From Deltaproteobacteria bacterium (GTDB lineage: Bacteria > Desulfobacterota > Binatia > UBA9968): a DNA stretch of 64,000 nucleotides. The position numbers and the translations under genes were made by a program. Where the stretch lies: assembly GCA_016193465.1 (NCBI GenBank), contig JACPSE010000155.1, forward strand, positions 19,040 to 83,039, in the 5' to 3' direction. Below the pieces are notes generated by a model. That model searched no databases and was not told the DNA's origin. It saw only the letters and a list, made by a program, of their open reading frames with translations. Below, one piece after another: positions 15,516 through 29,761 of this stretch. Position 1 is the stretch's first letter, and each line of letters opens with the position of its first letter.

Positions 15516-16538
15516 TTACCCTTGAATGAGTTTGCGCCAAAGTCGAGCATAGTCCTCAAATTTTTCCGCTAAGGAAAGATCGGCCGCGCGAATGTTCAAT
15601 CCCTTGGTCAGCTTCGGAGGGTCCGGTTCGATGTCCGGCCTTGTGGGGATGCGTCTAAAATTCCTCAGTATGGTTTGTCCTTCCTTCGAAAAAGCGAAAT
15701 CAATAAAAAGTTTCGCGACGTTGGGGTGGGGGGCATTCGCAATCATCGCCATAGGATAAATCTTGCTCAGAACAGGACTGGGTCCAACCCAGTCGACGGG
15801 CGCCCCCCTTTGCTTCATATTCTCCAGTTCGCCCGCATAGGCGATCACGGCAACAGGAAACTCTCCTGCGGACATCAACTGTATCAGAAGATTCTGACCG
15901 CGAATGATCTTGGGGTTCTGGCCAACGAGTCTCTCCAAAAAATTTACGCACTTGTCATCGCCCATTATCTTGCACTGGTTGGCGAACCATTCCTCGTCGG
16001 AGTCGTCCATGCCCAGTTTGCCTTTCCACTGCGGCTCCAAAAGCTGGCTGTATTCCCTTGGAACGATTTTTTCGTTGAGAAGCCTGGTGTTGTACCCAAT
16101 CACACTAGTATTTTGGTAAAGCGCGACCCAATACCCTTCGGGGTCTTTGAATTGCGCGGGGACAACCTCCGCCTCCGGGGAGCGATAAGCGACAGTTAAG
16201 CCTTTCTTTTTCAGAAAATAGGATTGGAATCCTCCCATTGAGACCACGTCGGCGAAAACTTTACCGGCGTTCTTGTCCGCAATGACTTTGTTGAGGATTT
16301 TGTTGCTCACCGCACGAAATAGTTCCGTCTTGATAAACGGGTGCTTCTTTTCGAACTGCTTGAGGAAATATTGCGACTGCTCGAGGTTGACCGTCGTGTA
16401 CCATACGAGGGAACCTTCCTTTTTGGCGCCCTCGATTAATTCTTTGGCAGGCTGCGCCTGTCCCAACGCTCCGGTTGCCGAGACGAGAAAGAAGCAATAA
16501 ACCGCCAGCCGGATCCCCCAAGAGCATCTTTTTTGCAT
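15516..16538 (-). CDS. Extracellular solute-binding protein (Fe3+-type ABC SBP)
   Basis: MQKRCSWGIRLAVYCFFLVSATGALGQAQ signal peptide; VIGYNTRLLNEKIVPREYSQLLEPQWKGKLGMDD. Confidence 0.85.
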   Translation of the reverse strand: MQKRCSWGIRLAVYCFFLVSATGALGQAQPAKELIEGAKKEGSLVWYTTVNLEQSQYFLKQFEKKHPFIKTELFRAVSNKILNKVIADKNAGKVFADVVSMGGFQSYFLKKKGLTVAYRSPEAEVVPAQFKDPEGYWVALYQNTSVIGYNTRLLNEKIVPREYSQLLEPQWKGKLGMDDSDEEWFANQCKIMGDDKCVNFLERLVGQNPKIIRGQNLLIQLMSAGEFPVAVIAYAGELENMKQRGAPVDWVGPSPVLSKIYPMAMIANAPHPNVAKLFIDFAFSKEGQTILRNFRRIPTRPDIEPDPPKLTKGLNIRAADLSLAEKFEDYARLWRKLIQG

Positions 16539-16642
16539 AAGCACCTCCTCGGTAACAGATAGCTTATGCGTCATCCTAGGCGAACCCGAAACGAGCTGTC
16601 AAGGTTTGCGCAGGGAAATTATTTAAGATAGAAGAGGGTTCC

Positions 16643-20998: not shown

Positions 20999-21280
20999 CT
21001 ACTGGAATATTTCCTGCCACTCCTTGAGCAACTGCTCGTAGTTTTCCGAGGTTTCTGGCTGGACCGGATGAAGCTTAAGCTTGGCAGGGTTCAACTGCGC
21101 GTATAGCGGCGGCAAATCCGGCCTTGGAGAGATTCTTCCTGCAGCTCGGATATGCGATTGCCCTTCCTTGGAAATGGCAAAATCAACAAACAAGCGCGCC
21201 GCCTCCGGATGAGGGGCATCCGCAGCCAAAAGGCAGGAGACTAGACTGACGATAATATGCTTCCGTTCTCCACGTGTCAT
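20999..21280 (-). pseudogene. C-terminal fragment of an extracellular solute-binding protein
   Basis: DAPHPEAARLFVDFAISKEGQSHIRAAGRISPRPDLPP matches SBP C-termini (compare APHPNVAKLFIDFAFSKEGQTILRNFRRIPTRPDIEP in 15516-16538); no N-terminal lobe. Confidence 0.75.
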
Positions 21281-22732: not shown

Positions 22733-24262
22733 ATGGCCAAAATCTACGACCTAAGCGTCTCCTTGAGAACTGAGAACATGGAGTCCAGCGAGGTCAAATT
22801 GACCTCCGTCACGCATGACGAAGCGGCCAGGATATTCGCCAAGCGCCACAACCTGAAAGTTTCCGACCTCCCACAGGCCTCTTTTTTCTCCACCGAGCGA
22901 ATCCAGTTAAGAAGTCACTTGGGCACTCACCTCGACGCTCCCTATCATTTCTATCCGACCTCCGAGGGCCGCCCGGCGAAGCTCATTGACGAAGTGCCCC
23001 TGAAATGGTGTATCAGCGACGGGGTCGTGCTCGATTTTCGTCATAAAAAGCCCTCCGAGCCGATTACCGAGTATGACGTCGCCTCCGAGCTGGAAAGAAT
23101 CGGCTACAGGCCGAAGCGAGACGATATTGTCGTCCTTCGGACAGGGGGCACGGACCACTATGACAATGATCCCCGCTTCGCCGAGTCGGCAGCAGGGATG
23201 AACGGCGGCGCGCTGAACTATGTCTTTCGTTTCGGCGTAAAGGTCATGGCTACGGATTCCGCCACGATCGATATGCCCATCCCGCTGATGACGGAACGTT
23301 TGGTAAAAGGAGACAAGGCCGCCTATTTCCCGATACACCGGGCCGGACGGCTGACGGAGTGGACGCACGCGGAGAAACTCGCCAACCTTGGCAGTTTGCC
23401 GGCTCCGTTTGGCTTCAAGCTCATGTTTTTTCCCGTTAAGATCGCGCGCGGAACCGGCGCCTGGATACGGGCCGTTGCTATCGAGGACGCTTGGCTGAGC
23501 AGCCATCGCCTTCGGCTCGTCGACCTTAGCCTGCCCATCATGAACCACAGCTTTGAGCCCGGGGAAAGCCGCGTCATGACAGTCCATCACGATCAAAATC
23601 AAAGAGCCAAGGCGAAGCGCCTTCGCATGCCCGTCTCTGAGATCATCCACCTGGGGGCGATGGACATCGTGGAAACTTACACCCACGCGGGTACGCATGT
23701 GGACGCGCCCTACCACTTCGGCCCAACTTGCGACGGGAGAAGGGCTTCGACGGTGGATGAACTCCCGCTCGATTGGTTCTACAGCGACGGGGTTCTGCTT
23801 GATTTTAGCGCGACGAAGCGCCCGGGCGAAAATATCTCGGTTGCAGATCTCGCGGGAAACCTGGAGCGGATCGGGCATCGGCTGAAAGACCAAGACATCG
23901 TGCTTATTCGCACTGGAGCCGCCGACCGCTTCAGTGACGATCCGAATTTTTCTGACCTGTCCTTAGCCCTGGACAAAAAGGCTCTCCTCTGGCTGCTGGA
24001 TCAGGGGGTCCACGTCATAGGTTGCGACGCGGAGTCACTGGACGGTCCGGTCGGTCCTATGGTCGAAGCCCTGCGCGCAGGCAAAAAGGAAGGCTTCTTC
24101 TCCATCCACTATGCCGGCCGGGAGCGCGAGTTCTGTCTCATTCACAAGATGGACCTAAGCTCATTGCCGCGCGCTCATGGCTTCAAGGTCGTCGCTTTTC
24201 CGATCAAGCTGGAGGGGTGCAGCGCGGCCTGGACACGCGCGGTTGCCCTTGTGGAAATGTAA
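22733..24262 (+). CDS. Tandem double-domain cyclase family protein (kynurenine formamidase-like fold)
   Basis: Two copies of the metal-binding motif: SHLGTHLDAPYHF and THAGTHVDAPYHF, each followed by SDGV(V/L)LDF and DDIVVLRTGG / DQDIVLIRTGA. Confidence 0.9.
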   Translation: MAKIYDLSVSLRTENMESSEVKLTSVTHDEAARIFAKRHNLKVSDLPQASFFSTERIQLRSHLGTHLDAPYHFYPTSEGRPAKLIDEVPLKWCISDGVVLDFRHKKPSEPITEYDVASELERIGYRPKRDDIVVLRTGGTDHYDNDPRFAESAAGMNGGALNYVFRFGVKVMATDSATIDMPIPLMTERLVKGDKAAYFPIHRAGRLTEWTHAEKLANLGSLPAPFGFKLMFFPVKIARGTGAWIRAVAIEDAWLSSHRLRLVDLSLPIMNHSFEPGESRVMTVHHDQNQRAKAKRLRMPVSEIIHLGAMDIVETYTHAGTHVDAPYHFGPTCDGRRASTVDELPLDWFYSDGVLLDFSATKRPGENISVADLAGNLERIGHRLKDQDIVLIRTGAADRFSDDPNFSDLSLALDKKALLWLLDQGVHVIGCDAESLDGPVGPMVEALRAGKKEGFFSIHYAGREREFCLIHKMDLSSLPRAHGFKVVAFPIKLEGCSAAWTRAVALVEM

Positions 24263-24289
24263 GCGTAAACGAGTTCCAAGGTTTCACCC

Positions 24290-24598
24290 ATGGAGAATCG
24301 ACGCGAGAGCGTACCTTCTGAGCGCCTGCTGCACATTTACCGCACGATGGTCAGGCTGCGCGCCTTTGACGAAAAGCTCATCGAGCTAGGTGCAGAGATC
24401 GCTGCCACCGTGGCAGAAAAGGGGTTCCCGGCGCTCAAGGCTCCGATCCAGCGCGTCTGCTATCCGGACAGGATCGTCCCGGGCACGGTCTATGGCGAGT
24501 CCTTGTTTATGATCGAGGTCAAGAATATAGTCGACGGCGTCCAAAAAGCGATGCCGGCGACGATGTCCCACGACGGCGGACGCCTGCCGACCAACTGA
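24290..24598 (+). pseudogene. In-frame deletion fusion of 2-oxoacid dehydrogenase E1 alpha N-terminus and E1 beta C-terminus
   Basis: RLLHIYRTMVRLRAFDEKLIEL (E1-alpha start) directly joined to GAEIAATVAEKGFPALKAPIQRVCYPDRIVPGT...VKNIVDGVQKAM (E1-beta end). Confidence 0.7.
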
Positions 24599-24605
24599 GA
24601 TCGAC

Positions 24606-25631
24606 ATGCAGCGTATTGACATTCATAACCACGTCATACCTGCCGCATATATCAAGGCGGTCCGGGAGGCCCCCCAGCGCATGGGGAGCCGCATTGAGCG
24701 TGACGGGCAAGGGCGGGAGTGGTTGCTCCTGGACAGTGGTAGGAAGACCCAGCTCCGGCGCCCTTTCATAGAACCGGAGCTTCGCCTGCACGCCATGGCA
24801 GAAGCGCAAATTGATGTCATGGTCGAGTCTATTCTGCCGCCTCTTCTCCATTATTGGGCAGACGTGGACAAGGCGGTGCGTGTCTGTCGCACCGTCAACG
24901 ATGCCATAGCTGAGAATGTCTCCCGTTATCCGGACCGCGTCGTCGGCATGGGAATGGTCCCGCTCCAGGATGTAGGGGAAGCAATCCGGGAGCTTGAGCG
25001 CATCGTCCACGAGCTTGCGATGCCGTCGGTCATCGTTGGAACCAACGTCAACAGTAAGAATCTCGACGAGCCAGAATTCTTTCCGTTCTTCGAGCGCGCC
25101 CAGGGGCTGGAGGTGCTTGTCTTCGTCCATCCACACGAGGTCGCTGCGTCCGAGCGCTTGAAGCGCTACTACCTGACGAACTGGATCGGCAATCCGCTGG
25201 AGACATCCATCGCTTTCGCGAGCCTGATCTTCGGTGGGGTCTTGGAACGGCTGCCAAAATTGAAAGTCTGCTTCGCCCATGCAGGGGGTTACACCCCCTG
25301 GATCCGCGGCCGGTGGCGTCACGGCTACAGCGTGCGTTCAAAACCGGAGGTTGTCCTTAAACACCCCATTTACGAGTACACGCGCCAATGCTTCTTCGAC
25401 ACCGTCATCTTCGATGAACTGGCCCTGGAATACTTGATCCGAGCTGTCGGGAGTGACCGCGTTCTGCACGGAACGGACTACCCTTCGGACATGGGAACCT
25501 GGGACCAGGTTCCGCTCATCAACAGGTATAGCAACCTTACTGAAACAGATAAGGAGAGGATACTCGGAGGAAATGCGGCGGCGTTGTTGAGATTGAACCA
25601 GCCGCCCCTCGCCAAACAGGAAGGCAAATAA
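24606..25631 (+). CDS. Amidohydrolase family protein (ACMSD-like)
   Basis: MQRIDIHNHVIPAAYI; VFVHPHEV; CFAHAGGYTPWIRGR; VLHGTDYPSDMG. Confidence 0.9.
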   Translation: MQRIDIHNHVIPAAYIKAVREAPQRMGSRIERDGQGREWLLLDSGRKTQLRRPFIEPELRLHAMAEAQIDVMVESILPPLLHYWADVDKAVRVCRTVNDAIAENVSRYPDRVVGMGMVPLQDVGEAIRELERIVHELAMPSVIVGTNVNSKNLDEPEFFPFFERAQGLEVLVFVHPHEVAASERLKRYYLTNWIGNPLETSIAFASLIFGGVLERLPKLKVCFAHAGGYTPWIRGRWRHGYSVRSKPEVVLKHPIYEYTRQCFFDTVIFDELALEYLIRAVGSDRVLHGTDYPSDMGTWDQVPLINRYSNLTETDKERILGGNAAALLRLNQPPLAKQEGK

Positions 25632-28648: not shown

Positions 28649-29761
28649 TTACCGCAGCTTGATTTTGCCAAACTTTTCCTTGAACTCTTTCTCGATGTTT
28701 TTGAGAAGCTGTTCCCTCATCTCGAACAGGCGCTTGGGTTTTCTGGGCGGGTGCTTTGCCAGGGCATAGGCGGTGAGGACGGGAAGGGCGATGGTGGAGG
28801 CCACATAGCAGACAACCGAATCGGGCAACTGCTCTGGATCAATCTTTCCCCAACTGACCGCTTCGCCCGGCGTTGCCCCGGAAAGTCCGCCGGTATCCAC
28901 GCGGGCATCGGTGATTTGGATAAAGTAGTCGTGGCCTTTCTCGTTGAGGCTGAGCACCTCCTGGATGTGCGGCTCGGTCTGTAAGAGGAAATTTTTCGGC
29001 GAGCCACCTCCCAGAATGATGGCGGCGCTCTTGCCTCCGGTTCGCTTTGCCTCCAGGACAATCGCTGCAGACTCGTTGACATCCAGGGAGACGTCAAACT
29101 TCAGTCCGTTTCCTTTTAAGGCCAAGGCCGCCACGTTCATCCCGATAGAACTGTCGCCTGGAGAAGAGGTGTAAATCGGCACTCCATACCTGTAGGCGGT
29201 AGCCAATAGGGATTTCTTTTCCGTTCCCAGGACCTTCTCCCGCTCAGCCAGGTACCTCCCCACGTGAAAGTGAAGCTCCGAGGTGCTCATTTCTTTTTGA
29301 AACTCGGCGGCCTTAAGGATTTCGCGGAAGAAATCATCCGTGGAGATCAGAATGTCATAATCGAAAAAGATGTCATAGATCCTGACAATCCCCTCTTCCC
29401 GCAAGGTCACATCGTTGGCGTCGGGGGTGCCACGGTGCATCGGAAGGCCCATGGCAAAATGGGCGTCGTGGTAGAGATTGGCCCCGGTGCTGACGATCCA
29501 GTCGACAAAGCCATTCTCGATTAAAGGGATCAGGGCGGAGATGCCGAGCCCTGCCGGAGTCAGCGCCCCGCTGAGGCTCAACCCGACAGTGACATCGTCT
29601 TTAAGGATCTTTTCGGTGAAAAGCTGGCATGCCTCGCGCAGCCGGCCGCCGTTGTAGGAGATAAAGTTGTTGTCTACTAGTTCGGTGACGGAAATCGAGG
29701 GGTTGATCGGTTTGGGGTCGATCTTTTTCCCTGAGAGAAACTCGCTCTTCCGCGCCATCAC
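28649..29761 (-). CDS. Deoxyhypusine synthase family protein
   Basis: [60 protein letters not shown]. Confidence 0.85.

Follow-up and report, generated by a model that had tools for sequence, protein, structure and literature searches.

A 102-codon open reading frame joining an E1-alpha start to an E1-beta end, probably left by a single deletion of about 1.7 kb

The E1-alpha and E1-beta subunits of the pyruvate, acetoin and branched-chain 2-oxoacid dehydrogenases (TIGR03181, NF006667, PF00676, PF02780) are usually encoded by genes in alpha-beta order. Two lines of published work describe how neighbouring or disrupted genes can be reshaped by deletion. In evolution experiments with Pseudomonas fluorescens, in-frame fusions of adjacent genes generated by deletion were recovered repeatedly (PMC4395868), and in Salmonella young pseudogenes are rapidly removed by deletion (PMC2916853).

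Here we analyse an open reading frame (ORF) in a window of 64,000 nucleotides from a Deltaproteobacteria bacterium (contig JACPSE010000155.1), both halves of which derive from the E1-alpha/E1-beta group and retain its usual gene order. Unlike the intact subunits, it carries no cofactor-binding or catalytic region from either. It resembles the P. fluorescens fusions in that neighbouring genes have been joined in frame by deletion; in those fusions, however, a functional domain is kept and becomes activated, whereas no domain survives complete in this ORF (PMC4395868). It likewise resembles the young pseudogenes of Salmonella, disrupted genes undergoing removal by deletion, but the single deletion proposed here reaches across two genes, and the frame stays open (PMC2916853). 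The ORF fits this background of known deletion fusions and pseudogene removal, and it provides a clean natural case of a two-gene deletion with an in-frame remnant.

Composition of the 102-codon frame

The ORF occupies positions 24290-24598 of the forward strand and encodes 102 amino acids, with an ATG start, a TGA stop and no internal stops on translation. The first-pass annotation had described an E1-alpha-type start that switches at about 24389 to an E1-beta C-terminus. To examine the two halves separately, profiles were built from proteins collected in the present analysis (106 for alpha, 130 for beta). Residues 4-35 matched the alpha profile (23.5 bits, E=3e-5) and residues 33-93 matched the beta profile (67 bits, E=2.5e-18); on these values both matches exceed chance. 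The profiles thereby bore out each half independently and placed the switch at residue 33/34, at approximately 24386-24389. The alpha remnant (24290-24388, forward strand) comprises the native start codon and about 33 initial codons, and the beta remnant (24389-24598, forward strand) comprises the final ~69 codons and the native stop. Each half preserves the outer terminus of the gene from which it came, and the two stand in the order alpha then beta, as in intact operons.

Searches with curated models gave the same assignments, with neither half reaching the curated cut-off of its family. The N-terminal half aligned with positions 18-46 of 341 in the E1-alpha model TIGR03181 (E=0.0048), and the C-terminal half aligned with positions 76-124 of 124 in Pfam Transketolase_C (PF02780), scoring 25.3-25.8 bits, just below the cut-off of 25.9, so that this domain is incomplete in the ORF. 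The second half also matched the final ~56 positions of the NCBIfam E1-beta models, and the top solved-structure matches of the ORF were E1-beta chains aligned at their C-termini. No match to the pyrimidine-binding domain (PF02779) was detected within the ORF, nothing of the alpha cofactor-binding and catalytic core was matched past residue ~35, and PF00676 was unmatched. Both subunits have lost their catalytic body.

The ORF lies between two intact genes on the same strand, and the close spacing noted in the first pass was confirmed. Upstream, a gene for a 509-aa protein with a double Cyclase domain (22733-24262; PF04199, 200 bits in two stretches) ends 27 bp before the ORF start. Downstream, a gene for a 341-aa Amidohydro_2 protein (24606-25631; PF04909, 141 bits) begins 7 bp after the ORF end. 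A search of the interval separating the cyclase gene from the amidohydrolase gene turned up no terminator-like site. Elsewhere in the same genome, a paralogous cluster (locus L165, contig G000:C174, 2732-8870) contains a cyclase-like ORF, solute-binding proteins, a permease and a 45% identical amidohydrolase; it carries no E1 genes.

The junction and the missing stretch

The alignments to the two profiles end at Leu33/Gly34 (24386-24391, forward strand). Leu33 is compatible with both the alpha and the beta partners, so the break point can be placed only to about one codon, and a short microhomology at the break is possible. To estimate how much DNA is missing, the corresponding break points were located in 23 intact adjacent alpha/beta pairs, where they lie 1663-1928 bp apart (median 1736). 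The ORF is thus short by ~1.7 kb relative to intact pairs, a shortfall that a single deletion is enough to explain. The distance between the break points was divisible by three in nine of the 23 pairs; about one third of such deletions would therefore preserve the frame, and we rejected frame retention as a mark of selection.

According to the model that we favour, with a probability of roughly 0.8, one ~1.7-kb deletion fused the start of an E1-alpha gene to the end of an E1-beta gene and left a recent, non-functional remnant. The parent would have been the E1-alpha gene of a TPP-dependent 2-oxoacid dehydrogenase of the pyruvate/acetoin type, together with an adjacent E1-beta gene. The deletion would have taken the 3′ ~90% of alpha, the intergenic gap and the 5′ ~80% of beta, and the remaining ends would have happened to rejoin in frame to give the 102-codon ORF. 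A single deletion that removed most of an alpha/beta operon and kept the frame had been proposed in the first pass; the dual homology, the preserved termini, the gene order and the ~1.7-kb spacing all support it, the kept frame itself carrying no meaning. Four further full-length E1-alpha genes remain in the same genome, with E1-beta matches on their contigs, making the loss of one E1 pair plausibly tolerable.

Relatives, sister genomes and competing explanations

No end-to-end relative of the 102-aa protein was found among 58 near relatives, 148 genomes of the class and 395 genomes of the phylum, or in a pattern scan covering 84,980 species, and a conserved small family was accordingly rejected. 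An intact operon in sister genomes had also been proposed as a check; protein and DNA searches of the family, together with tracing of both flanking genes, revealed none at the ORF site. The cyclase has a single close ortholog among the 148 class genomes, 81% identical and from another genus (G014:C120), and the nearest relative of the amidohydrolase is 60% identical (G024:C342). E1 genes are absent alongside both, on contigs that are short (9.3 and 5.4 kb, respectively). The nearest separate E1-beta matches were only 36-57% identical, over short stretches, a level that does not point to the parent. Among the best matches to both halves was an acetoin-dehydrogenase-like alpha-beta-E2-SDR operon from the same phylum (L192; the two matches span 29 aa at 52% identity and 54 aa at 39%), which suggests the kind of operon that may have been lost, though it is not the parent itself. 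Plasmid records contained nothing beyond ordinary E1-beta matches, and PADLOC returned no result.

Several candidates were examined and set aside. A DNA match of 81% over 47 bp that ends at the junction (G006:C150) lies in an ordinary E1-alpha gene that adjoins an E1-beta gene in an unrelated setting. A 667-codon frame at first read as a fused E1 (G002:C165) arises where a gap, a run of N, joins an alpha gene to an unrelated dehydrogenase, and a 651-codon frame in G020 is a beta subunit fused to E2.

The main alternative is that an intact alpha/beta operon exists at this site in the organism and was collapsed or misjoined during assembly. With 238 contigs the assembly is a draft, and misassembly can produce a clean join. 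However, the window is free of N, no second copy of the ORF with its immediate flanks (24243-24620) was found elsewhere in the assembly, and no orphan alpha body was found there either: the strong E1-alpha matches are four long genes, accompanied by one weaker partial match and one below threshold, both without the N-terminal part. A second truncated gene nearby bears on the same question. On the reverse strand at 20999-21280, ~3 kb upstream of the fusion ORF, a 93-aa ORF retains only the ~85 C-terminal residues of a 5′-truncated ABC solute-binding protein. It aligns with residues 277-351 of the 352-residue solute-binding protein encoded in the window at 15516-16574, and its relatives mostly have open frames of 340-375 aa. 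Truncations of two genes within 4 kb could mean local assembly trouble, but they suggest local gene loss as the likelier reading, and overall we consider an assembly artefact unlikely, if still the most serious competitor.

The remaining alternatives appear far less probable. A parent that was already a single fused alpha-beta E1 gene would make the deletion internal to one gene, and a fused E1 does exist among the fetched loci (L089); it is, however, the only one among the collected sequences and comes from a Bacteroidetes genome, and within the family the E1 pairs encountered consist of two separate, neighbouring genes, leaving this the least probable of the readings. A functional small chimeric protein under selection, for example a binding partner or decoy subunit for the remaining E1 complexes, might be argued from the open frame, the plausible coding composition and the little-decayed state of both halves. 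Against it, hundreds of relatives yielded no conserved family, a confident fold is absent, the frame would be retained by chance at the frequency seen in the intact pairs, and the beta half keeps no more than the final part of Transketolase_C; we regard such a function as very improbable. It is equally hard to credit a newborn small protein kept for binding a remaining E1 complex or for coupling translation to the downstream amidohydrolase gene.

State of the remnant

Scored against intact alpha N-termini, the alpha half falls at the 45th percentile. The beta half lies at the 9th percentile (low-normal) when compared with intact beta C-termini, a set partly chosen by similarity to the ORF. The GC content of the ORF by codon position (0.62/0.41/0.77) resembles that of its coding neighbours. 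Because the half scores are near normal, stops are absent and the codon composition is neighbour-like, the remnant is probably young or merely mildly diverged, and the deletion is probably not ancient. AlphaFold, run on the single sequence, gave no confident fold (mean pLDDT 57, pTM 0.40), which is weak evidence since no alignment was supplied. The ORF is almost certainly a dead remnant. It lies in frame among tightly packed genes on the same strand, so transcription probably continues, and perhaps translation as well.

Such a deletion remnant is ordinary, though neatly preserved. Automatic annotation would call an ORF of this kind a small hypothetical protein or an 'E1 component', and its worth is mainly as a warning for annotation rather than as a pointer to new biology.

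Two further observations were made in this genome. A short solute-binding-protein fragment with a 96-codon open frame (G000:C94:11278-11502) is possibly another remnant. Within the window, a deoxyhypusine synthase-family gene (28649-29761, reverse strand; PF01916, 244 bits) adjoins an MlaA lipoprotein gene in what is a bacterial genome.
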